Source: a virus. Taken from it: a DNA stretch of 48,825 nucleotides. The position numbers and the translations under genes were made by a program. Positions 22,685-48,533 of this stretch are shown piece after piece (the first letter of the stretch is position 1; every line of letters begins with the position of its first letter). Below the pieces are notes generated by a model, which searched no databases, had not been told where the DNA came from, and saw only the letters and a list, made by a program, of their open reading frames with translations. The stretch is from positions 1-48,825 of IMG/VR virus record IMGVR_UViG_3300042561_001716. The stretch is one strand, 5' to 3'.

Positions 22685-23230
22685 TCAAGCGGCATAAGCC
22701 AAGTCTAGAAGCGTGTCCAGAGTTTTCCGTGGCACTGGATTGGACACACTAAACTCTAGGTTTAATTCTTTGGCGCGTCGTCTGATTGTTGATATTGACG
22801 GTTTCCATCCTGTGTGTTTTTGCAGCCACAGCGGTACATCTTTGCCGGGCAATCCCTCAATCAAAATCGCATCACCTAAAGCCTCTTCTAACGCTTGTTT
22901 GCGGGTTTTGCCGTTTGATAATGGTATGGGAGAATTGAGCATTTTTACTATTTCGGGGAGAGCAATTTTCGTACCTACACCCTTGGGCTTGCCTCCCTTG
23001 GTTCTGATTGCCTGTTCGCGCTTCATGTAAGCAAGGCACATAATCCACAGGCAATGAGTTTTTGAAACAATGTTTTCCCCGTCCTTCCGGTTCGCTTTGC
23101 AGCGAAAGTCAGGGAAGTTGCAAATACTCTTCCATGCGTCCCATGTGCGGGACGCGATTGGAGCTTGATAGAGTTTTACGCACTCAGCGCGTACCCAACG
23201 CTCCGGGTATCCTTCAGGTTGATTATTCAT
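22685..23230 (-). CDS. Hypothetical protein with C-terminal helix-turn-helix-like segment
   Basis: A 180-residue protein from the ATG at 23230, which overlaps the stop of the upstream membrane protein gene (ATGA). It has WVRAECVKLYQAP near the start, a Lys/Gly-rich middle, and a HTH-like end (WLQKHTGWKPSISTIRRRAK). It may bind DNA. A longer frame from 23320 exists but the coupling favours 23230. Confidence 0.55.
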   Translation of the reverse strand: MNNQPEGYPERWVRAECVKLYQAPIASRTWDAWKSICNFPDFRCKANRKDGENIVSKTHCLWIMCLAYMKREQAIRTKGGKPKGVGTKIALPEIVKMLNSPIPLSNGKTRKQALEEALGDAILIEGLPGKDVPLWLQKHTGWKPSISTIRRRAKELNLEFSVSNPVPRKTLDTLLDLAYAA

Positions 23231-23920: not shown

Positions 23921-24052
23921 ATGAAAAGCGACGCACTCTTGACCTTATTAATCTGTGTTCTGCTCCCAATTAGCGGAATCGTTGGTTTTAAAATGGCTCA
24001 AGATTTCCTATATCCTGCGGAAGTTGTAGAGGCTCAAAATGTCAGAAATTGA
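23921..24052 (+). CDS. 43-residue single-TM protein, first gene of the ATPase operon
   Basis: The ATG at 23921 is preceded by GAGGG. The N-terminus is hydrophobic (LLTLLICVLLPISGIVGF), so it is probably a small membrane protein. It overlaps the next gene by 14 bases. It starts a chain of closely packed genes that ends with the FtsK-like ATPase. Confidence 0.5.
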   Translation: MKSDALLTLLICVLLPISGIVGFKMAQDFLYPAEVVEAQNVRN

Positions 24053-24182
24053 GGTTTATCTGGTAGTCCGAAAATCCGATAAAGACGGATATACAGAATA
24101 CCAACTACAACAGCCTTTACCTTGGGCGCTGTTATCAAGTGCAATTAAACGGATAATCAGAAAATTGGTAGGTGAAAAATGA
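24039..24182 (+). CDS. 47-residue protein of the ATPase operon
   Basis: The ATG at 24039 lies within the previous gene and the stop overlaps the next ATG (ATGA). It reads MSEIEVYLVVRKSDKDGYTE and ends with a basic helix. No family was recognised, but the overlaps on both sides support it as a real gene. Confidence 0.5.
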   Translation: MSEIEVYLVVRKSDKDGYTEYQLQQPLPWALLSSAIKRIIRKLVGEK

Positions 24183-24709
24183 CAGTTGCAGATTTAGTTA
24201 AAAGTTTCATGAAAACAGAAATGTCCGTAGAGCAAGTTTGGGAGAAAACCCAATATATTTGCGGACAATACGGCATTGATCCTGCTGCTTTAGATGACGC
24301 GAATGCTCAATTTGTAGCAGGGGAAATTGATAAGGAAAATGCTGGTTTAGCAGTTATTGAAAATAACGGACAATTGGCAACAACTGAAGAAAATAATAGC
24401 AAGAAAGGTAAGAAGAAAAACGTCCCAACGAACACGTCCGCTAATTCTGATCCAATTGAAAGATTAATCCCAGTTATAAAGGATTTACACTCAACCGTAT
24501 CTGCCCAAACTGGAGCGATGAAAGACATAGTTCGCAGGAAGGTTGAGCAAAAGAAAAATTTAGCAGTAGAGGAATTGCTGTCATTAACCGACGGCATAAA
24601 TGAAGAAATTCTACTTGACTTCACCAAGGGGTTAGAAGCGAGGTCACAAGAAACACAATCCTTTCTTGAAAGATTTGAGGGGGCGTTTGACGAGGCTTGG
24701 GGAAGTTAA
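24179..24709 (+). CDS. Hypothetical helical protein of the ATPase operon
   Basis: A 176-residue hydrophilic protein. The N-terminus is helical (ADLVKSFMKTEMSVEQVW), the middle is Lys/Asn-rich (NSKKGKKKNVPTNT), and the C-terminal half is a long helix (KNLAVEELLSLTDGINEEIL). It may be a cytoplasmic partner or adaptor. It starts by 4-base overlap with the previous gene. Confidence 0.65.
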   Translation: MTVADLVKSFMKTEMSVEQVWEKTQYICGQYGIDPAALDDANAQFVAGEIDKENAGLAVIENNGQLATTEENNSKKGKKKNVPTNTSANSDPIERLIPVIKDLHSTVSAQTGAMKDIVRRKVEQKKNLAVEELLSLTDGINEEILLDFTKGLEARSQETQSFLERFEGAFDEAWGS

Positions 24710-24743
24710 TAGTGTTTCTAGTATTATCCGCCCATCAAATTGG

Positions 24744-24878
24744 ATGATACGCGCCACACTTATTCTTAGTTTCACGTTTACGGGAGCTTTTATTTATGCA
24801 ATTTCACAACCTCCCAGATATGTGGGAGGAAACAACTATCAAGAACCCACCAGTAACTACCGACAAGCCGATTGGTAA
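24744..24878 (+). CDS. Small membrane protein of the ATPase operon, start uncertain
   Basis: A frame with one TM segment (ATLILSFTFTGAFIYAISQP) and a polar tail. I use ATG at 24744; upstream TTG codons would lengthen it. It overlaps the next gene (from 24796) in another frame over 83 bases, so one of the two starts may be misplaced. Confidence 0.4.
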   Translation: MIRATLILSFTFTGAFIYAISQPPRYVGGNNYQEPTSNYRQADW

Positions 24879-25182
24879 AAGATTAGAACCTATCGAGTTC
24901 AAGATTAAACCAGATGGTGAGTTTAATTTTAAAGGCATTCCTGATTCGGATGTAATAAGGCAAATAATTACAACCACTGACTACCACCGTGATCAAAACA
25001 GGAATCAGGAGTCAGAAATACTCAAGCAAGCCAAAAATATTGACATGATGACCCTCGGTGTTTTGGCTTCATCAATTCTAATCTGTCTTTTGTGCCTTTT
25101 TCTTTCATTCAATAACAAACAACAAACACAGGGGAGCGTAGTTAATAATGGACAATTTCTTCGGGGGACTTATTGCCAGTAA
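24796..25182 (+). CDS. Membrane-anchored protein of the ATPase operon
   Basis: A 128-residue protein with a GGGAG sequence 9 bases before the ATG. The N-terminal 80 residues are polar and Pro-rich; a single TM segment follows near residues 93-115 (LGVLASSILICLLCLFLSF). It is a C-terminally anchored protein. It overlaps the next gene by 35 bases. Confidence 0.55.
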   Translation: MQFHNLPDMWEETTIKNPPVTTDKPIGKRLEPIEFKIKPDGEFNFKGIPDSDVIRQIITTTDYHRDQNRNQESEILKQAKNIDMMTLGVLASSILICLLCLFLSFNNKQQTQGSVVNNGQFLRGTYCQ

Positions 25183-25579
25183 ATCCGGTAAATTGGCTGG
25201 TAGTAGTCAGAATCCAACCACTATCGGCAATATTGGTAATTCCAAAGCACGGATAACCGCCAAAATGGAATTACCCACGGAAATATCGGCACAACAAGTA
25301 ATAAATTTGGAGCGCGAAATGGGGCAAGTTAATGCAGAATTGGAATTGGTTGACGACATTATTGCTACTCAAGAAAAACTGCTTAATAAAGCGATAGATT
25401 TGCATGACAAAAACACTAGATGGGCTGGTGTGAAAATGAAGGCAGATCAGAGATTACGAGAAATTGAATCTAGCCACAATCAAACAGTTGCTAGATATAC
25501 GTTAGGCGCGGCCACAACCCAGGCTTATGTAGACGGTTTTACAGAAGCTTATCAAGTAAGTGCGGAGATATTTAGCTGA
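25148..25579 (+). CDS. Coiled-coil protein of the ATPase operon
   Basis: A 143-residue protein with a Gly/Ser-rich N-terminus and a coiled-coil-like middle (NLEREMGQVNAELELVDDII). The stop overlaps the next ATG. No family was recognised. Confidence 0.6.
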   Translation: MDNFFGGLIASKSGKLAGSSQNPTTIGNIGNSKARITAKMELPTEISAQQVINLEREMGQVNAELELVDDIIATQEKLLNKAIDLHDKNTRWAGVKMKADQRLREIESSHNQTVARYTLGAATTQAYVDGFTEAYQVSAEIFS

Positions 25580-25878
25580 TGCTGATGAATACCAAAAATT
25601 TACTCTATTTTGGATACTTCTTAACTGGCGCATCGTTCTTCCTTTTATTGGGGCAAATTATTCGGGGATTCCCTGAATCCAAGAATGGCGCGATCGCCTT
25701 ATTTGTCGTCAGCATCCTAACATTTATAGGACTTGGTTTTTATAATTGGTGTGGGCTGTGGTACAAGTCCGCCGGGCATCTGAATAAAAATCAATCAATT
25801 GTAGGATTTGCCCCAACCTATGTTTTTGGAACTGCGGCTACAGTCGCGCTAATTATTGGAATCGCAATAGGGGGATAA
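25579..25878 (+). CDS. Three-TM membrane protein before the FtsK-like ATPase
   Basis: A 99-residue protein with three hydrophobic segments (FGYFLTGASFFLLLG, IALFVVSILTFIGLGF, VFGTAATVALIIGIAIG). It starts by ATG overlapping the upstream TGA and ends one base before the ATPase gene. It probably forms a membrane base for the ATPase complex. Confidence 0.65.
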   Translation: MLMNTKNLLYFGYFLTGASFFLLLGQIIRGFPESKNGAIALFVVSILTFIGLGFYNWCGLWYKSAGHLNKNQSIVGFAPTYVFGTAATVALIIGIAIGG

Positions 25879-25879
25879 T

Positions 25880-27802
25880 ATGTTGCAATCAACCAACCCG
25901 TTTGCACATCAAAAAAACTGTTTTGAACCCTTGATAACATCCGAGCGCATATTGTTGGGAGCGCTCGGAATTGCGGCGGCGGCTGGTACAGTTTTACCTA
26001 TTTTGTGGCCAAATCAAATCAAGGAAGTAAAGCTAATTGAAAACATAGCGGGGCTGTCTTTTGCGACTTGTTTCACAGCAGAATGTTTTCGCAGACAACG
26101 TAAGGAAAAAACTTACCAGAGTATTGATGAGGCTAACCATCAAATAGTTAAGGAGGGACTGCGGAACACATTTGTTTATGAAAAAGCAGCCCAAGAAATT
26201 AGGTCTAAGCGGAAACTAGCGGCTTACGTTAATCGCCTACCAGCAGAGGAGCGTGGACGGTGGATGCAACAATTTGGGTTACAGGGATTAGTGGAATTAC
26301 CTCAAGTCCAACAAGCCGTAATTGAACCCAAACAATTACCAAGTTCTCGCGGCATTCCCAATCCTGAAGTTGCGGAATTTAATGAGGATGCAGTCCAAGA
26401 AATCATCAACCCTGGTGTGATGGCTGTATTAGAAGAATTAGCCGCAGAATATCCTGAATACATCAGGATTGATAATAATTGGATTGATGAATTGTGTGAT
26501 AGTTCCGCAGTTCAAGATATGGGGAATAGAGCCAACCACCATTTCGGGTTATGGGGTGAAACTCAGTCTGGTAAATCAACATTAGCGGGGGTAATTATTA
26601 ATAAGATTGCGGCTCAATCACAGGGTGCAGCTTATGTGATTGGGAGTGATCCTAAGAATTTCGTTACCCGTTGGTTGTGCAAATTTTCCCGTAAATTTGA
26701 AGGACTGCAATCACTACCAGAATGGATTACTTTTGCTACCAAAATTATTGATGAAAGACAACAACAATTTGAGCATAATCGGAAAGGTACAAGCCTACCA
26801 GAAATATTTTTAATCCAAGATGAAGTGAATGTAGTTTATGGTGGGGGCAAAGGATTACCAGGAACAGGCAAGAAACAAGTTACTAAGGAAACCGCTTTAA
26901 ACTTACAGGGGATGTGGAATTACATTATTAACTTCACAGCCGCAATGAAGATTCACGGCGTGTTCATGGGGCAAAACCCGTTAAGTGGATGTACTGGGTT
27001 TAGTCGTCCTAGTTACAAGAATATTTGCTTTATTGCGCTGGGTAAAGTGTCGTCTTATATATTAAGTAATCCAGCCGATTTTCTTAATGTCAAAACTGAT
27101 ATTCTTGACTTATTGAAAGAGGTTTGTGAATTACTTGATAAGCAAGGCGTGAGATATGCTTTAGTAATTCCCACTAAAGGTAATCCTTATATTGCTCTAA
27201 TTCCTGTTTTCAATATTGATGATTTGGAGCAAACTGAAAAACCACAGGATGCACAACCAGCGCATCAGCAAGACGCTGTAAACCCCTATCAAATAATAGG
27301 AGATTGGATAGACAAATTAGGCAGAAATCCCACCGACTCTGAATTAACTCAAGCGTGGCAACAAGTCACTGGAATATCTCTAACTGCCGATGCTTTAATG
27401 CTGTTGAAAAACAATCTTGAACTAACTGATGAAGTTGTCACCTGGTCCACAATTACGGCAAATATTGAATTGCCCGAAAAATGGCGGGAGGAAGATTTAC
27501 AAAAAGCTATAGCATCCCGACTAATTGAACACGGTTATCAGGCGCAAACAGAAGTTAAAAGTAATGGCGGTTTCATTGATATTGCCACTGATTTTGATGG
27601 TGGAACTATTATCGAAGTCAAGAAGTATTTGACTAGAGATACAATTTACCAAGCGGCTGGGCAATTGGGGGTTTACGGTAAAGGCAATGAGTACAAATTG
27701 CTTGCTGTTGGCTTTCTACCAAGCAATGAAGGTGATATACAGCAAGCAAAAACAACCGCGTCAATGGTTGAGAATGAAAGAATCAAAGTTTTGTTTATTT
27801 AG
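25880..27802 (+). CDS. FtsK/HerA-like ATPase fused to a PD-(D/E)XK nuclease domain
   Basis: A 640-residue protein. Two hydrophobic segments near residues 25-75 anchor it to the membrane. Walker A (GETQSGKST) is near 225-233 and Walker B (FLIQDEV) near 310-316, in the pattern of FtsK/HerA/TraD DNA pumps. Residues about 455-510 look like a small helical domain. The C-terminus holds a restriction-endonuclease-like core: GGFIDIATD near 564, IIEVKK near 577 and a Q motif (AAGQLGVYG) near 595. It probably moves and cuts DNA at the membrane. Seven small genes, several for membrane proteins, lie just upstream in the same direction. Possible roles are DNA entry, transfer, or defence against other phages. 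Confidence 0.8.
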   Translation: MLQSTNPFAHQKNCFEPLITSERILLGALGIAAAAGTVLPILWPNQIKEVKLIENIAGLSFATCFTAECFRRQRKEKTYQSIDEANHQIVKEGLRNTFVYEKAAQEIRSKRKLAAYVNRLPAEERGRWMQQFGLQGLVELPQVQQAVIEPKQLPSSRGIPNPEVAEFNEDAVQEIINPGVMAVLEELAAEYPEYIRIDNNWIDELCDSSAVQDMGNRANHHFGLWGETQSGKSTLAGVIINKIAAQSQGAAYVIGSDPKNFVTRWLCKFSRKFEGLQSLPEWITFATKIIDERQQQFEHNRKGTSLPEIFLIQDEVNVVYGGGKGLPGTGKKQVTKETALNLQGMWNYIINFTAAMKIHGVFMGQNPLSGCTGFSRPSYKNICFIALGKVSSYILSNPADFLNVKTDILDLLKEVCELLDKQGVRYALVIPTKGNPYIALIPVFNIDDLEQTEKPQDAQPAHQQDAVNPYQIIGDWIDKLGRNPTDSELTQAWQQVTGISLTADALMLLKNNLELTDEVVTWSTITANIELPEKWREEDLQKAIASRLIEHGYQAQTEVKSNGGFIDIATDFDGGTIIEVKKYLTRDTIYQAAGQLGVYGKGNEYKLLAVGFLPSNEGDIQQAKTTASMVENERIKVLFI

Positions 27803-27810
27803 GTGAAATC

Positions 27811-27969
27811 ATGTTGAATCAACAACAAATTAATCAATTAATTGATGAGCAAAACGCCGATGCAATCAATAGCATCTATTGGGAATTACCATCAAAGACT
27901 CAACGGTTAATTGATAAAATGATTGCAAAATATTGGCGGTTTAATGCTGGCACGTTATCAGATTTTTGA
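27811..27969 (+). CDS. Small protein after the ATPase gene
   Basis: A 52-residue helical protein with AGGTGAAATC before the ATG, 8 bases after the ATPase stop. It begins MLNQQQINQLIDEQ and is Gln/Asn-rich. It may be the last gene of the ATPase operon. No family was recognised. Confidence 0.5.
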   Translation: MLNQQQINQLIDEQNADAINSIYWELPSKTQRLIDKMIAKYWRFNAGTLSDF

Positions 27970-35152: not shown

Positions 35153-36104
35153 TTACTGCCACTCCTAATTCAGTGATCATCATGTCTACTATCTTTAGAA
35201 TTACCTGACTCCGGTATTGTTGAACCATACCATCAGTTGAGATGCCAACTTGGGGCGCGAGTTGGTCAAGCTTGGCGCGAAAATCAGCTAAATCACCTTT
35301 ATCGAGAAAGATATAAAACTGTGTTTGTTCGCCCTTTCCGGTGTAGTTGATACTTTGGACGCTGGCAACATCCGCCACGTTTTCAGTTTTAACTGTGACT
35401 CTTTCCGCAGGTGGTGGAGGTGTGTAATCGCTTCTGCTGGGAGTTGCATTAACGCCAGTCGTGCCACTTTCACTTATTTGAGTATTTGAGTATTTCTCAT
35501 CATCAAAATTGTAATTACCGACTTCTTCCTGTATTTCTTCTCCCTCTAGCTCATCTTCGGGTTCTTCCTCTTTACGAACTAAGAAGGCTTGCATAAAGCT
35601 ATTGGCAGTCCCAGAATCCCAACCCGCAGTTTTAATCTGCCTTTTGGGCATTTGTGCCAGTATTGCAGCTATTTTGCCAGGGTCGTCACGTCCATCATGG
35701 GAACTGTTGTTAAGTCGAAGTAGTGCAGATTTCTGGCTAAGTTCATCAAGAGTTACGGGAACGGCGGGAACAGTCGCCCAATATTTAGGGCAAAAGCGTT
35801 CTTGGTGCTTTTCTGCTACCTTATCTCTACCCGTTCCCTTGATCCACCGCTCCCACTCTTTCAAGAAAAAGCCTTCATCTTGTTGGCTTAACCAATCCGC
35901 ACCCTGAACCCGCCCATGCCCTGATATGAGATACCCAAAACTACCGTCTAGGTTTCGTTGAATTGTTGGGTAAATCAACCATCCAAAATCTAGAAGTGAG
36001 TCACGAATCCAAGGCAAATCGTTTTCTTCTGAGTGTTCGCGGGGGTTTTCAGGGTGAAACCGCGCCAAAACTTCAACAGTCGGCAGCCATAAAATCTCAC
36101 TCAT
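35106..36104 (-). CDS. ParB/IbrB-like protein
   Basis: A 332-residue protein. The first 90 residues form a ParB-like domain (WLPTVEVLARFHPENPREH, then GYLISGHGRVQGADWL). A low-complexity acidic linker follows, then a C-terminal helical region (DLADFRAKLDQLAPQVG). IbrB-like proteins pair with PAPS-reductase-like IbrA proteins, and such a gene lies downstream in the operon. It overlaps the upstream sigma-like gene by 4 bases. Confidence 0.7.
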   Translation of the reverse strand: MSEILWLPTVEVLARFHPENPREHSEENDLPWIRDSLLDFGWLIYPTIQRNLDGSFGYLISGHGRVQGADWLSQQDEGFFLKEWERWIKGTGRDKVAEKHQERFCPKYWATVPAVPVTLDELSQKSALLRLNNSSHDGRDDPGKIAAILAQMPKRQIKTAGWDSGTANSFMQAFLVRKEEEPEDELEGEEIQEEVGNYNFDDEKYSNTQISESGTTGVNATPSRSDYTPPPPAERVTVKTENVADVASVQSINYTGKGEQTQFYIFLDKGDLADFRAKLDQLAPQVGISTDGMVQQYRSQVILKIVDMMITELGVAVNDSASEPITAENIGF

Positions 36105-37219
36105 TTTTTAGCTACCTCAACGGCTTTCTGAGATTTTTGCAAAGACTGATTCAGTAATTTTAACGCCTCGTCCAAATCGGCTGATTCAGGGCAATTTTTA
36201 ATCAGGTAATCAGCGAGAGACGTAAATTTACTGGTAATCTGCCACTGCGATTGACTGGTACTCATTTGTTTTTTCGATAGATTTATTGAACTATCAATAA
36301 CATAGTTTTTACTCCATAGGGAAGCGGTACTGTGGTCAATCCCCAAATATGTTTCGCACCAATACAAGCTTTTACCATTAGCGATCGCGTCAACCGCCTT
36401 AATCCTTACGTCATTAGAATAGCCACGTCTCCCGATTGGCGCGGGGTTATCCCTAAATTGAATCTGACAGGACTTGCATAAATAAGCCTGTTTACCGTCA
36501 CGTTTACCATTTTTAATAGTTTGATAATCTTTGCAATTTGGGCATTGGACCCGCCCAAGTGCCATTAACTTTAGTTTTCGCAAAGCGTCAGACTCAATTC
36601 GGCGTAATTCCCTTAATTTAATATTGTGGATTTGGCACAGCATCTTGACGGGAATATGGTCAATATACAAATCCTTGATAATTGTGGCGTGAAGTTCTGG
36701 GAGTTTATCAAGCAGGGGGAGAATTGAGTCTAATTCCTCTTGTTGTTCTGCCGTTAGCTGTTCGGGTAGTTCAGGATTATTTTGATTACAGGCCATCGCC
36801 GCTTCTTTGGCAACTTGCAAGGAAATATTTAATTCAATCGCCGCTTGTTCATAAGTTACGCCGTGTTTTTGGGCGTACCGCTTCAGTTTTTGGTGAGTTT
36901 CTTGTAACGGACGCGGAACTTTCACCATCCGCACTTTATCCCTGACAAATTGCGCCATCGCACCATAGATAAACGGCACGGCGTAACTGGACAGCTTGAT
37001 TTTCTTGGCAGGGTCAAACCTCTCCACCGCTTTGATCAAACCTTCCGCCCCAATCTGTATTAGTTCGTCTCTCGGAACTGTGCAGCAAGCGGTCATTTTA
37101 CCCGCGACGTGACCGACTAAGCCCATGTTCATCTCAACTATCCGGTTTCGTAGTCGAATATCTCTGGTTTGGTGAAAGTTAATTAAAAGTTGCTGATTGT
37201 CTAGATATGCCGCGTCCAT
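36101..37219 (-). CDS. Sigma-70-like factor fused to an InsA-type zinc ribbon and HTH
   Basis: A 372-residue protein. Residues about 20-95 match sigma-70 region 2 (RNRIVEMNMGLVGHVAGKM, DELIQIGAEGLIKAVERFD, SSYAVPFIYGAMAQ), and about 165-220 match region 4 (HATIIKDLYIDHIPVKML). Then residues 226-251 form a zinc ribbon (CPNC at 226, CKSC at 248), followed by a HTH (ANGKSLYWCETYLGIDHSTA) like the N-terminus of IS1 InsA proteins. So a sigma factor has gained a transposase-type DNA-binding unit. It may direct transcription of late genes. AGGA lies 7 bases before the ATG. Confidence 0.8.
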   Translation of the reverse strand: MDAAYLDNQQLLINFHQTRDIRLRNRIVEMNMGLVGHVAGKMTACCTVPRDELIQIGAEGLIKAVERFDPAKKIKLSSYAVPFIYGAMAQFVRDKVRMVKVPRPLQETHQKLKRYAQKHGVTYEQAAIELNISLQVAKEAAMACNQNNPELPEQLTAEQQEELDSILPLLDKLPELHATIIKDLYIDHIPVKMLCQIHNIKLRELRRIESDALRKLKLMALGRVQCPNCKDYQTIKNGKRDGKQAYLCKSCQIQFRDNPAPIGRRGYSNDVRIKAVDAIANGKSLYWCETYLGIDHSTASLWSKNYVIDSSINLSKKQMSTSQSQWQITSKFTSLADYLIKNCPESADLDEALKLLNQSLQKSQKAVEVAKK

Positions 37220-40099: not shown

Positions 40100-40496
40100 A
40101 CTTGAGTATTGCCCATTTGGTGACATAGGAGAAAAAGAAATAGCTTGGGCAAGCGTTGAAGTTGAGACGGAGCATAACGATCCTTTTCTTCGCGTTAATC
40201 CTGTTGTGAAAGTTCAAAGCTACCAAGCAGCGAGTGACGAAAAAGACAAGCTAAAAGCCCTTGCGGAAAAAGCAAGTGCCAAAAAAGGGGTAGAAAGGAT
40301 GGCTTTAAGTGCTTGGAATAGAGAGATTGAGGTTTCGATTGGATTTCAGGGGCATACTTATTCCACGGAAAATCCAAATAATCTAGACCTGTCACACGCC
40401 GTTTATAAGCTGCCTTCTTTTAAGGTTTTGAGCATAGAAGGCAATGAAGATTTTGAAAGTAAAATTCCGCCTATTCCGGAAGGATGTGTTTCATGA
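40089..40496 (+). CDS. Partner protein of the zincin, immediately before terminase
   Basis: A 135-residue alpha/beta protein (MKIKLEYCPFGDIGEKEIAW). It overlaps the zincin gene by 11 bases and the terminase gene by 4 (ATGA). The tight pairing with a protease could mean an inhibitor or immunity role, or an assembly role; no motif decides this. Confidence 0.55.
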   Translation: MKIKLEYCPFGDIGEKEIAWASVEVETEHNDPFLRVNPVVKVQSYQAASDEKDKLKALAEKASAKKGVERMALSAWNREIEVSIGFQGHTYSTENPNNLDLSHAVYKLPSFKVLSIEGNEDFESKIPPIPEGCVS

Positions 40497-43054
40497 GTGG
40501 GTGGGGAACGTTACTCAATCTTGAATCCGCAACACAGCAAGCCTTGGCGGTAGAATCCCAAGGTGAAAGTAAGATCACGCTGTTTGAGGAATTTGAGCCG
40601 AACCCCGGAGGACAAGCGCGGTTTCTTGATATGATGGGGTGGCAGGACGTAGAACCCCTAACGCAGAGATGGGGAGCGGCTATTGGGGGAATAGGATGTA
40701 TTGCCGGGGAAACTGAAATTAACGGCGTTCCGGTTCGTGAATTGACGCGATCGCCTATCAAAGTACAAACCCTGATAGGCGAAACTTACGCTACACCTGC
40801 ATTTGTGAAGGGTCAAGCGAATCTTTATCGAGTAACGCTTCGCTCTGGGAAACAAGTTCTAGTAACGGCACACCACCGTTTTCTCTCGCCAACTGGATGG
40901 CATCAACTTCAATTCCTTGATTGCGGTTCGCTCGTAGCTTGCCATGATAACGAGAATGATCTGGCGGGGTTGGAAATATCCAGAGATTATTCAGATCGTT
41001 ATCAAGAGCGTTTTCATTCTGGTGGTGAACTACTTCCTCCCGCTTTAGTTTTCGCCCTAGAATATTCTGGACTGTCCCCCTTGCTCTGTAGTGGTTTTCT
41101 TCCCGACTTTTCCCGCCATTCCACTGAGAATTTTTCTCTGGAGAACGAGCGCCAACTCTTCGCATTTGAACGCCTCTTCTCACAAGCCTTCGACGAATTA
41201 CCTCATCTCGAACGCCAAAGTCTCGCCCAATCTCACGGCAAGTTTCACCATTCTTGTATCGCTCAATTATTTGATCCATCGGAAGGCTATAATCTGTCTT
41301 ACGTTGATAACCCGTCATGCCAGGGAGTGCGTCAAACTCTTCGCAAACTTTGGCGACGGTTTTCTTGCTTATACCAAGAGCTTCGGCAGTGTACGCGTAA
41401 TTCCTTGTCTGCTGATAGTGTTCAAATATTACTTGATAATCTGTTCTTCTCGCGTTTGGCTTTGCCTTTGGGGTATGAAGCCCATGCTTTTGCAGTGCGT
41501 GGGATACAGCATTATGACAAGTTCCTAGAGTTCTCGCTATTGAGCGAATGCTTGGATGTTCACTCAAAAGAGATTGCCACTGCTCTTTTGAAAGTTGCGA
41601 AGGCTTGTTCATTTATTTGGACTAATTCTATTAGTGGTAATACATACAATGATAACTCATATTGGGACGTAATTGAAGCAATTGAGTATATTAGATATGA
41701 TGATTTTTACGACATTCATGTACCACAAGGAAATCATTATTTAGCTAACGGAATATGGCATCACAATAGCGGTAAGTCATTCTCCGGTGCAGTTTGGGCT
41801 TGTTCTCGCGCTTTGCTTGCGCCGGATGCTAGAGGTATGATATCGGCAAATAGCTACGGGCAGCTATCGAGGGCATCCCTTCTGGCATTAGTCGAAGTTT
41901 GCCGGATGTTCAATATTCCCCTTGAACCTTGGCGTGAATCGGCAGAAGATCAGGCTTTAGCGATCGCCAACTGCCAACGCTGCTATATTGGACCAGATCG
42001 AGCGTTTGTTTATGTCCTGTCAGCATCGGCTTTTAGCGGTTCAACTCAAGCGGGGCGCGGTTTGCAAATTCGATGGTTTTGGGGAGATGAGTTTGCCTAC
42101 ACACCGGAAAAGGCATTTTTAACTATTGATGGAAGATTGGGGCGGGGACCAGGTACGCTCAAAGGTCAAGGCATCCTGACAACTTCACCAGCCGGATATA
42201 ACTATCTGTGGGATAAATTTGGAGATCCAACCCGAAGCGACGACTTAAAACGGATTTACCAAATTGTTTCAATGTCGTCACTGGAAAATAAAAAACATTT
42301 AGGCGAGGATTATGTAGCGTCGCTTGAGGCAAACTATAGTGACGAACTGTACCAACAAGAGGTAATGGGGCAGTTTATCAACACGGTACAGGGTTTAATT
42401 TATAAATACTTTGACCGCACCAAACACTCGTTCCAAGATGAAGATGCGGAACTTTTGGAATATGACCCGAATCTCCCTCTACTCCTGACCTTCGACTTTA
42501 ACCACACGCCCATAGTTTGCCTAGCTGCCCAAAAACGCGGTAACGAGATCCACTTTTGTAAAGAATGGTTTCTGATGGACTCCGATATTTGGGAGTTGAC
42601 GGAAAGCATTGTGGACTGGGTAGAGAAGCACGGCATACCCCCAGAAATACAAATATTTGGTGATGCCACCGGACGGGCAAGAACTGCGGCCAGTCGCTTG
42701 TCGTCGTGGGATATTGTGTTCCAGGGACTTGAACCTCTAGCAGCACTGCGAGGTAAAGGTTATTTGGTTCGCAAGTTTGCAGACGCTAACCCGTATGTAG
42801 TTAACCGGGTTCACTCAGTCAATCAACTTTTCCGCCAAAACCGTTGTTATATTCACTTTGCAAACTGCCAAAACTTTATCAAGGATTTGGAACAGGTGAC
42901 TTGGAGTGACGAGGGCATCAATAAAAGCGATAACCCGCTACTATCACATTTAAGCGACGCGGCGGGTTATCTAATTCATTCAATTTATCCGTTTAAGAAG
43001 GAAACCAGGGAACGGAAGTCAGGGAAGAAAAAAGTTAGGGGGCTTGCGGGGTAA
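40493..43054 (+). CDS. terL: Terminase large subunit interrupted by an intein
   Basis: The start is ATG at 40493 (MSGWGTLLNL, GGAAGGA 8 bases upstream). Without the intein the protein is about 496 residues. The extein Walker A motif GGIGSGKS is rebuilt when the intein (40697-41767) is removed. Walker B is WFWGDEFA, motif III is TTSPAG, and the C-terminal nuclease has Asp residues in TFDFNHTP, FGDATG and SHLSDAAGY. It packages DNA into heads and cuts it. The precursor must splice to give an active ATPase. It ends with a 20-base overlap with the convergent HAD gene. Confidence 0.93.
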   Translation: MSGWGTLLNLESATQQALAVESQGESKITLFEEFEPNPGGQARFLDMMGWQDVEPLTQRWGAAIGGIGCIAGETEINGVPVRELTRSPIKVQTLIGETYATPAFVKGQANLYRVTLRSGKQVLVTAHHRFLSPTGWHQLQFLDCGSLVACHDNENDLAGLEISRDYSDRYQERFHSGGELLPPALVFALEYSGLSPLLCSGFLPDFSRHSTENFSLENERQLFAFERLFSQAFDELPHLERQSLAQSHGKFHHSCIAQLFDPSEGYNLSYVDNPSCQGVRQTLRKLWRRFSCLYQELRQCTRNSLSADSVQILLDNLFFSRLALPLGYEAHAFAVRGIQHYDKFLEFSLLSECLDVHSKEIATALLKVAKACSFIWTNSISGNTYNDNSYWDVIEAIEYIRYDDFYDIHVPQGNHYLANGIWHHNSGKSFSGAVWACSRALLAPDARGMISANSYGQLSRASLLALVEVCRMFNIPLEPWRESAEDQALAIANCQRCYIGPDRAFVYVLSASAFSGSTQAGRGLQIRWFWGDEFAYTPEKAFLTIDGRLGRGPGTLKGQGILTTSPAGYNYLWDKFGDPTRSDDLKRIYQIVSMSSLENKKHLGEDYVASLEANYSDELYQQEVMGQFINTVQGLIYKYFDRTKHSFQDEDAELLEYDPNLPLLLTFDFNHTPIVCLAAQKRGNEIHFCKEWFLMDSDIWELTESIVDWVEKHGIPPEIQIFGDATGRARTAASRLSSWDIVFQGLEPLAALRGKGYLVRKFADANPYVVNRVHSVNQLFRQNRCYIHFANCQNFIKDLEQVTWSDEGINKSDNPLLSHLSDAAGYLIHSIYPFKKETRERKSGKKKVRGLAG
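40697..41767 (+). mobile_element. Intein in the terminase P-loop
   Basis: A 357-residue intein inserted between GGIG and SGKS of the P-loop. It starts with Cys (CIAGETEINGVPV, block A), has a block B-like segment with TAHH (residues about 55-60), and ends with DIHVPQGNHYLANGIWHHN, giving the HN end before the +1 Ser. The middle, residues about 80-305, has no recognisable sense-strand endonuclease domain. On the opposite strand this region encodes a complete HNH protein. Confidence 0.92.
40791..41612 (-). CDS. HNH homing endonuclease-like protein encoded antisense within the intein
   Basis: A 273-residue protein encoded on the strand opposite to the intein. Three HTH-like segments (about 22-44, 74-92, 124-146: SIRSIARTLGTCHNAVSHAL, AEALGISKKTVAKV, CREIGRDFGVRDEVIRRRL) precede an NUMOD/HNH_3-like core (VVHHQNENALDNDLNNLWIF, DHSRYHG, about 194-224) with H196, H197, N208-209, H219 and H223 as likely catalytic residues. 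It has no ribosome site and no promoter was found. The C-terminal 35 residues lie antisense to the intein block B region. It would spread the intein by cutting intein-free terL genes. Confidence 0.85.
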   Translation of the reverse strand: MNKPSQLSKEQWQSLLSEHPSIRSIARTLGTCHNAVSHALQKHGLHTPKAKPNARRTDYQVIFEHYQQTRNYAYTAEALGISKKTVAKVCEEFDALPGMTGYQRKTDYSLPMDQIIERYKNGETCREIGRDFGVRDEVIRRRLVRRGVQMRRVGARSPEKNSQWNGGKSREENHYRARGTVQNILGRKLKREEVVHHQNENALDNDLNNLWIFPTPPDHSRYHGKLRANRNQGIEVDAIQLARENGGVPLLELVSQSEALLDKDSLDPSQMQV

Positions 43055-47706: not shown

Positions 47707-48177
47707 CTAATGACTTGCATTTTCCAACTTCTCGATCCGCCGCTCAATATTAGATTGGCGTTTCAGCACTTCCGTGTATTTTGAGTTTTGCGCGAGTGCT
47801 GCGGATAGCTGCTCAAAATCTCGCGCCATGCTGGATATCTCGGAGTTAATGCGATTTTGCTCCTGAATTACGCCCGATAATAAAGCCGTCTGCTGTTTGA
47901 TGAACTCAAGATCCTTGTTTTGGGATTTATCCATCTCCTCTTTGTCGCGCCTGATGTTTTCAATCAAAAAAATTAAATCTTTTTTTACATCTCTGATTGA
48001 GTTTTGTTCAGAATCATTGATTGATTTCATCCCCTGCCATACAGCAAGCGCAAAGCTAAGAACACCAACAAATATTCCCGATATTTCTACCCACGACAAG
48101 CCAAGTTGCTTGCTAATAATTAAAAAGGCAAAAGATAAAATAGAAACGGCGAATAAAATTATTGTCTTAGTTCTCAT
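47707..48177 (-). CDS. Membrane-anchored coiled-coil protein
   Basis: A 156-residue protein with two TM segments near the N-terminus (IILFAVSILSFAFLII and WVEISGIFVGVLSFALAVW), then a long coiled coil (KKDLIFLIENIRRDKEEMD, EVLKRQSNIERRIEKLENA). It may be a membrane sensor or scaffold. It follows the FHA gene by 5 bases, so it is probably made together with it. Confidence 0.65.
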   Translation of the reverse strand: MRTKTIILFAVSILSFAFLIISKQLGLSWVEISGIFVGVLSFALAVWQGMKSINDSEQNSIRDVKKDLIFLIENIRRDKEEMDKSQNKDLEFIKQQTALLSGVIQEQNRINSEISSMARDFEQLSAALAQNSKYTEVLKRQSNIERRIEKLENASH

Positions 48178-48182
48178 TGATT

Positions 48183-48533
48183 TTACACTCCGTTGATGCT
48201 CCTCCCATCAGGAAATAATATTAAATGGGGATAAATATAATCTTCAGAAAACGTTACTACATCCTGATTGTTGACCTTATGTCTTAGAAAAATTCTCCTA
48301 TTATTAACCCAAGTGCCGCCATTAGACGGGCTTCCCTGGATTTCACCATCAAACAATAAATAATAAAAATCATTATCGTAATATAAAATTAAAGTGCAAT
48401 GCACCTTATCAACAATATCGCTAGGAATTACGACATCACAGATAGGGTCGCTACCTATTTTTATGCTGCTATTAGCCTCAAAGCTATATTCTTGTTTGAA
48501 TCCATTCGGCAATAGCAACAATAAGATTATCAT
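48183..48533 (-). CDS. FHA-domain protein
   Basis: A 116-residue protein with an FHA domain (SIKIGSDPICDVVIPSD, VDKVHCTLIL, NGGTWVNNRRI, VNNQDVVTF). FHA domains bind phosphothreonine peptides, so it may sense host kinase signalling. Its start overlaps the stop of the previous gene (TAATG). It is unusual in a phage context. Confidence 0.75.
   Translation of the reverse strand: MIILLLLLPNGFKQEYSFEANSSIKIGSDPICDVVIPSDIVDKVHCTLILYYDNDFYYLLFDGEIQGSPSNGGTWVNNRRIFLRHKVNNQDVVTFSEDYIYPHLILFPDGRSINGV

Follow-up and report, generated by a model that had tools for sequence, protein, structure and literature searches.

A cassette of cyanophages and Nostocaceae plasmids pairs a predicted membrane-anchored FtsK/HerA-type motor with alternative nucleases

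HerA/FtsK domains that are swapped along with nucleases and HTH parts have been proposed as the hallmark of anti-invader 'HerA/FtsK capture' systems (PMC10853773). On the side of DNA transfer, TdtA and a NurA-like nuclease are both required for DNA donation in Thermus (PMC5365140). Here we describe a cassette of cyanobacterial phages and plasmids in which a motor of this kind is paired with a nuclease, and for which our literature search returned no descriptive paper. Judged by its sequences, the cassette looks like an undescribed mobile-element machine that would handle DNA, and most likely destroy it, at the cell membrane.

What is new is that the motor goes with either a fused PD-(D/E)XK domain or an HNH gene downstream that is often unannotated, but never with the two together, and that some phages swap the motor core while keeping anchor and nuclease. 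Also new are the linked A/B allotypes, three with a palindromic site of their own, on a plasmid backbone of 90-98% identity, the separate conventional T4CP genes on plasmids carrying the motor gene F, and the restriction of all traced hosts to filamentous forms. The comparison unites 'hypothetical proteins' of cyanophages and Nostoc megaplasmids as one recognisable machine and brings to light an overlooked HNH gene after the motor. It bears on how mobile elements of multicellular bacteria handle or contest DNA at the membrane, and two such genera, Nostoc and Anabaena, are amenable to genetics.

Gene layout of the cassette

The window, by which we mean the whole stretch of 48,825 bases analysed, is a phage fragment from an IMG/VR virus record, with a terminase, tail genes and other phage genes. 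The cassette is surrounded by structural genes. Its order is B, C, D, E and the motor gene F, with a three-TM gene between D and E in relatives and an HTH gene, A, upstream.

Gene A (22685..23230, minus strand) encodes an HTH-containing DNA-binding protein of element-specific allotype (HMM family A). Homologues suggest a start at about 23230, and the longest ORF extends to 23320. Three of the 21 family members match HTH_17 (best E 2.8e-6).

The remaining genes lie on the plus strand. They begin with s1 (23921..24052), a 43-aa one-TM protein with a hydrophobic segment, which takes the position of the s1 family in related phages but falls outside the HMM of that family. Next come s2 (24039..24182), a 47-aa soluble protein of a 33-ORF HMM family, and gene B (24179..24709), a soluble protein with a Lys-rich linker that diverges together with A and whose HMM family spans phages and plasmids. 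Gene C (24796..25182) has one TM segment near its C-terminus (residues ~87-105) and a family of about 40 ORFs; its plasmid equivalent is Cp. Gene D (25148..25579) encodes a helical soluble protein found in most F loci of phages and plasmids alike, and is the most constant partner of F. Gene E (25579..25878) encodes a small membrane protein with 2-3 TM segments, again from a family in phages and plasmids. It is followed by gene F (25880..27802), whose 640-aa product is a predicted membrane-anchored FtsK/HerA-superfamily motor fused to a PD-(D/E)XK nuclease.

An earlier note, made from the sequence of the window, had listed nine genes between 23921 and 27969. The tight plus-strand packing holds at these positions, but eight of the genes are supported: a 70-aa ORF (24666-24878) overlaps B and C, and no separate gene stands there in the gene lists of relatives. 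The small ORF after F (27811..27969, plus strand) does exist, but it is weakly supported, with conservation limited to the closest relatives (5 other loci). The TM counts given for the upstream proteins are correct in part, with one each in s1 and C and two to three in E, but none in s2, B or D.

Cassette proteins gave only weak matches to Pfam and PHROGs, so the analysis was done by comparison of relatives. The genes stand in the identical order at dozens of loci on phages and plasmids, which makes the cassette more than a chance arrangement.

The window holds other features of interest. The terminase large subunit gene (40484-43054, plus strand) carries an intein at Walker A. An antisense ORF inside it (40791-41612, minus strand) encodes an HTH-rich protein with an HNH-like motif (HHQNENALDNDLNNLW), and the homing endonuclease of the intein may be encoded antisense. 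A sigma-70-like protein (36101-37219, minus strand) ends in an InsA-type zinc ribbon (weak match, below cut-off), an unusual fusion. Finally, an FHA-like protein (47707-48533, minus strand) adjoins a coiled-coil membrane protein, and the same pair recurs beside a divergent cassette (L098).

The motor and nuclease of gene F

The AlphaFold model of F is of moderate quality (pLDDT 68 overall, mostly 80-89 in the motor core) and consists of a helical hairpin with stalk, a core of RecA type and, at the C-terminus, a helical domain. The hairpin and long stalk occupy residues 9-119 (25904..26236; helices 9-42 and 48-119). Of the two TM segments proposed earlier, the hairpin stands, but only its first helix has a strong TM score. 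Walker A (GETQSGKST, residues 226-234, 26555-26581) and Walker B (LIQDEV, residues 311-316, 26810-26827) follow, and S230, G231, K232 and S233 as well as D314 and E315 are invariant in an alignment of 42 F homologues. The C-terminal helical domain (residues 469-515, 27284..27424), supported by alignment, is also present on a divergent motor (G302, 1.5e-9).

Among solved structures, the core is closest to TcpA (Z 16.3), with further matches to EssC, FtsK (Z 15) and HerA. On the strength of the modelled RecA-like core, the Walker motifs and these structural matches, we assign F to the FtsK/HerA superfamily, and the DNA-pump ATPase core predicted in the earlier note is borne out as a fold. In profile searches, FtsK/SpoIIIE proper (PF01580) did not match F of the window, and HerA (PF01935, Pfam DUF87) reached 20.5 bits on the full-length protein, under the cut-off of 23.2. 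The HerA N-terminal beta barrel is absent from the model, which has only helices before residue 221. The all-alpha insertion of VirD4/TraD-type proteins is absent as well, since Walker A ends at 234 and Walker B starts at 311. A sequence-based profile search against solved structures gave nothing useful for F or its PD-(D/E)XK domain.

The nuclease domain (residues 530-640, 27467..27799) has D567, E579, K581 and Q595 intact, and these residues are conserved. Modelled alone, it reaches a pLDDT of 92.7 with a canonical PD-(D/E)XK core, and its best structural matches (Z 9.9 to 9.4) are without exception PD-(D/E)XK enzymes, the nearest folds being AF1548, NucS and EndoMS. The PDDEXK_9 profile weakly matches 10 of 11 members of the nuclease family, with a score of 17.4 on full-length F (cut-off 25.5), and a RusA profile match is also weak. 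From the abbba core of the model and the D, (D/E)xK and Q residues, the domain is predicted to belong to the PD-(D/E)XK superfamily; the nuclease core read from the motifs is therefore present as a fold, whose absence from structure prediction the earlier note had named as refuting its proposal.

Distribution, nuclease pairing and A-B allotypes

The earlier note had proposed a search for the whole gene set in other elements. With HMM families built from the window genes we searched viral contigs and genomes and found the set, in the fixed order A ... B C D [3TM] E F, in phages and in large (200-540 kb) Nostocaceae plasmids. About 75 fetched sequences carry it, a number that includes repeats of one contig, and most of the viral records are fragments. 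F shares 79% identity with gp108 of Aphanizomenon phage CL131, a lytic phage, and the F region is the only match between the window and CL131 DNA within 25 kb. F is 28% identical to a protein of Leptolyngbya phage Lbo402-yong5 over half its length, and large Nostoc and Halotia plasmids encode unannotated proteins that share about 52% identity with its residues 57-518. The cassette is thus common to otherwise unrelated phages. In the F tree, the plasmid proteins form one clade beside the phage proteins, with one change between phage and plasmid, and the plasmids have retained the cassette with no adjoining phage genes.

Every traced host is filamentous. Genome matches fall in Nostoc, Desmonostoc, Komarekiella and one Coleofasciculus bin, all filamentous genera. 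Among 386 sampled cyanobacterial genomes, only two hold full-length F, and in two more a divergent motor stands ahead of a gene of the same HNH family. HetR is a sign of filaments, and it is encoded in all four of these genomes compared to 80 of 386 overall (p = 0.0017), an association confounded with phylogeny. The Coleofasciculus bin, which is perhaps incomplete, has no HetR match.

The fusion seen in the window is just one version of the module. The earlier proposal of an ATPase-nuclease module holds as regards the module and both folds, but most relatives have an HNH nuclease instead. In six-frame HMM searches, an F without fused nuclease nearly always has an HNH-family ORF that overlaps its 3' end or lies within about 1.7 kb downstream, and a fused F never has one. 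With F clustered at 90% identity, HNH is present in 0 of 4 fused compared to 12 of 13 unfused clusters (Fisher p = 0.002; the same table at the 70% level alone is not significant, p = 0.07). The exception is L015, an unfused cluster with no nuclease found. The annotation of plasmids L020-L023 does not label the HNH gene as such; in RefSeq, the ORFs overlapping the end of F are missing or shortened. Conservation gives no proof of the overlapping HNH start within F, since F itself is conserved there.

The HNH of the cassette matches phage HNH families. We rejected it as an exclusive marker of the cassette, as it is also found in Nostoc phage N1 and other phages that have no motor; the link between motor and HNH therefore rests on the cassette data. 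Relatives of the PD-(D/E)XK domain also stand alone. On three Nostoc plasmids they come directly after an FtsK-type motor gene or after one BRO gene, and a fourth (L095) has no adjoining motor.

The motor core can also be exchanged. L088 and L091 share anchor and nuclease with the window, including the hairpin and stalk of F, but their motor core is a different one, near to the core found on the Coleofasciculus contig. These two loci thereby show the feature expected of HerA/FtsK capture, a swapped motor alongside conserved effector parts. Separately, many phages hold a motor half-copy of 167-176 aa just before F (for example L006, 9983-10492), with a P-loop and neither anchor nor Walker B, perhaps a subunit with a regulatory or poison role. 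L106 (2830-7967) and L107 (4948-9257) each have a divergent motor-HNH cassette laid out in a similar way, and the one in L106 adjoins tail genes that have relatives in the window.

Two or three near-identical cassettes can reside in a single strain, each on a different plasmid, which means that the system does not keep out copies of itself. Between such co-resident copies the identity is mostly 90-98% for C, D, E and F, whereas it can be as low as 19-34% for A and B. Linkage between A and B types is strict (A1-B1 13, A2-B1 11, A3-B2 6, A4-B3 5), and upstream of three of the four A types lies a palindrome particular to that type. This pattern suggests that A-B acts as a specificity unit. Incompatibility by A allotype was rejected as an explanation: A is identical in 3 of 16 within-strain pairs compared to about 4.6 expected by our own estimate from the allotype counts, a difference that is not significant.

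Possible roles and comparison with known systems

The earlier note suggested defence, exclusion or DNA entry, and the sequence comparisons narrow this choice for a module that may act in one of these ways. We tentatively favour, ahead of a pump for the element's own DNA and of a segregation or resolution module, a mobile-element conflict module that would act as a membrane-bound interceptor of competing DNA. An FtsK/HerA-type ring motor would be held at the cytoplasmic membrane by the hairpin at the N-terminus of F together with C, E and, in relatives, the three-TM protein. DNA or element specificity would come from A, with its HTH, and from B, to which A is linked. The motor may pull or thread dsDNA, probably that of a competing phage or plasmid on its entry at the membrane. 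The threaded DNA would be cut by the nuclease that goes with the motor, a fused PD-(D/E)XK here and a separate HNH in most relatives.

We favour interception because the swapping of motor, nuclease and HTH parts fits the published HerA/FtsK-capture conflict systems. The mutual exclusion of fused PD-(D/E)XK and HNH, the PD-(D/E)XK gene after an FtsK-type motor gene on three other Nostoc plasmids, the replaced core in L088 and L091, the spread over unrelated phages with one move between phage and plasmid, and the apparent A-B specificity unit on a constant backbone all argue for it. Against it stand the coexistence of near-identical cassettes, the unfused cluster with no nuclease and the motor-free occurrence of the HNH family. 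In addition, F matched no defence system model in PADLOC 2.0, where its only match was to the P-loop of mad8 (E 4.6e-4, 43 residues). We saw no cassette in a defence island.

Possible, and to us clearly less probable, is a pump for the element's own DNA on the model of TraB/Spd, TcpA or TdtA with its NurA nuclease: A and B would bind a site on the element, the nuclease would open or trim the DNA and the motor would push it across membrane or septum. The best structural match is indeed the conjugation coupling protein TcpA, the Thermus pair provides a tested precedent, small membrane partners are known from Ced (PMC11868833), and the element-specific A-B pair with its palindromes and the filamentous, HetR-positive hosts would suit such a role. 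However, the filament restriction is confounded with phylogeny, no clt-like repeat cluster was found near the cassette, and both motor swapping and the presence in a lytic phage are left unexplained. Moreover, among eight plasmids tested, four with F (W01-W04) and three with a variant of FtsK plus separate PD-(D/E)XK, a separate T4CP-like gene was found in all seven motor-bearing plasmids, far from the cassette on the four with F. A second weak match in six of the seven, a 913-946 aa protein, is probably VirB4. F is therefore not the coupling protein of the conjugation system of these plasmids, and this, together with the missing all-alpha insertion, led us to reject a T4CP reading. We also found no F homologue with a proven conjugation or packaging role, which the earlier note had named as counter-evidence to its proposal. 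A distinctly unlikely idea is that the cassette lets phages and plasmids of multicellular cyanobacteria drive processed DNA of their own through septa, from cell to cell along the filament with neither virions nor pilus.

Segregation or the resolution of multimers or concatemers, in which a septal FtsK-like motor would feed large replicons to a nuclease dedicated to the resolution of joined copies, also seems unlikely. It would agree with the FtsK fold, the nearness of the nuclease to the repair endonucleases NucS/EndoMS, the RusA match, the likeness of A-B specificity to partition systems and the fact that joined copies are a problem for large plasmids and phages alike. Yet no recombination site or resolvase was recognised, the sharing of A allotypes within strains shows no incompatibility pattern, and swapping between unrelated nuclease folds would be unusual for a dedicated resolvase.

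Phage-specific DNA metabolism, be it genome packaging or host-genome degradation, with an incidental presence in plasmids, is highly improbable: the cassette does sit among structural genes, and a role in packaging or in the handling of concatemers has been ascribed to phage FtsK-like proteins (PMC13299392), but the window has its own terminase, plasmids kept the cassette with no phage genes alongside, and the motor is membrane-anchored by prediction.

The cassette shares with HerA-DUF4297, HerA-SIR2 and HerA-NurA the motor fold (Z 11-14) and an effector or nuclease, but F has a helical membrane hairpin in place of the HerA beta barrel. Like TraB/Spd of Streptomyces and TcpA of pCW3, it has a membrane-linked FtsK-like plasmid motor with an extra C-terminal domain, helical in F, and small membrane partners; unlike them, it has an attached nuclease, and the four F-bearing plasmids tested have a VirD4-type T4CP. 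With TdtA and NurA of the Thermus ICETh1 transjugation system (PMC5365140) it has in common an FtsK/HerA-type membrane motor beside a nuclease gene on a mobile element, the nuclease being needed in the case of TdtA. In contrast to that pair, its nucleases are of other families, it has a TM anchor and small membrane proteins, and no competence partner is known. As in the HerA/FtsK-capture systems, DndFGH and relatives (PMC10853773), a HerA/FtsK motor is combined with nuclease and HTH parts and motors come from swapped sources. Unlike these systems, the cassette has no recognised DndF/G/H domains, Orc/CDC6 or D5 helicase; it is, by prediction, membrane anchored, has small TM partners and is carried by phages and plasmids.
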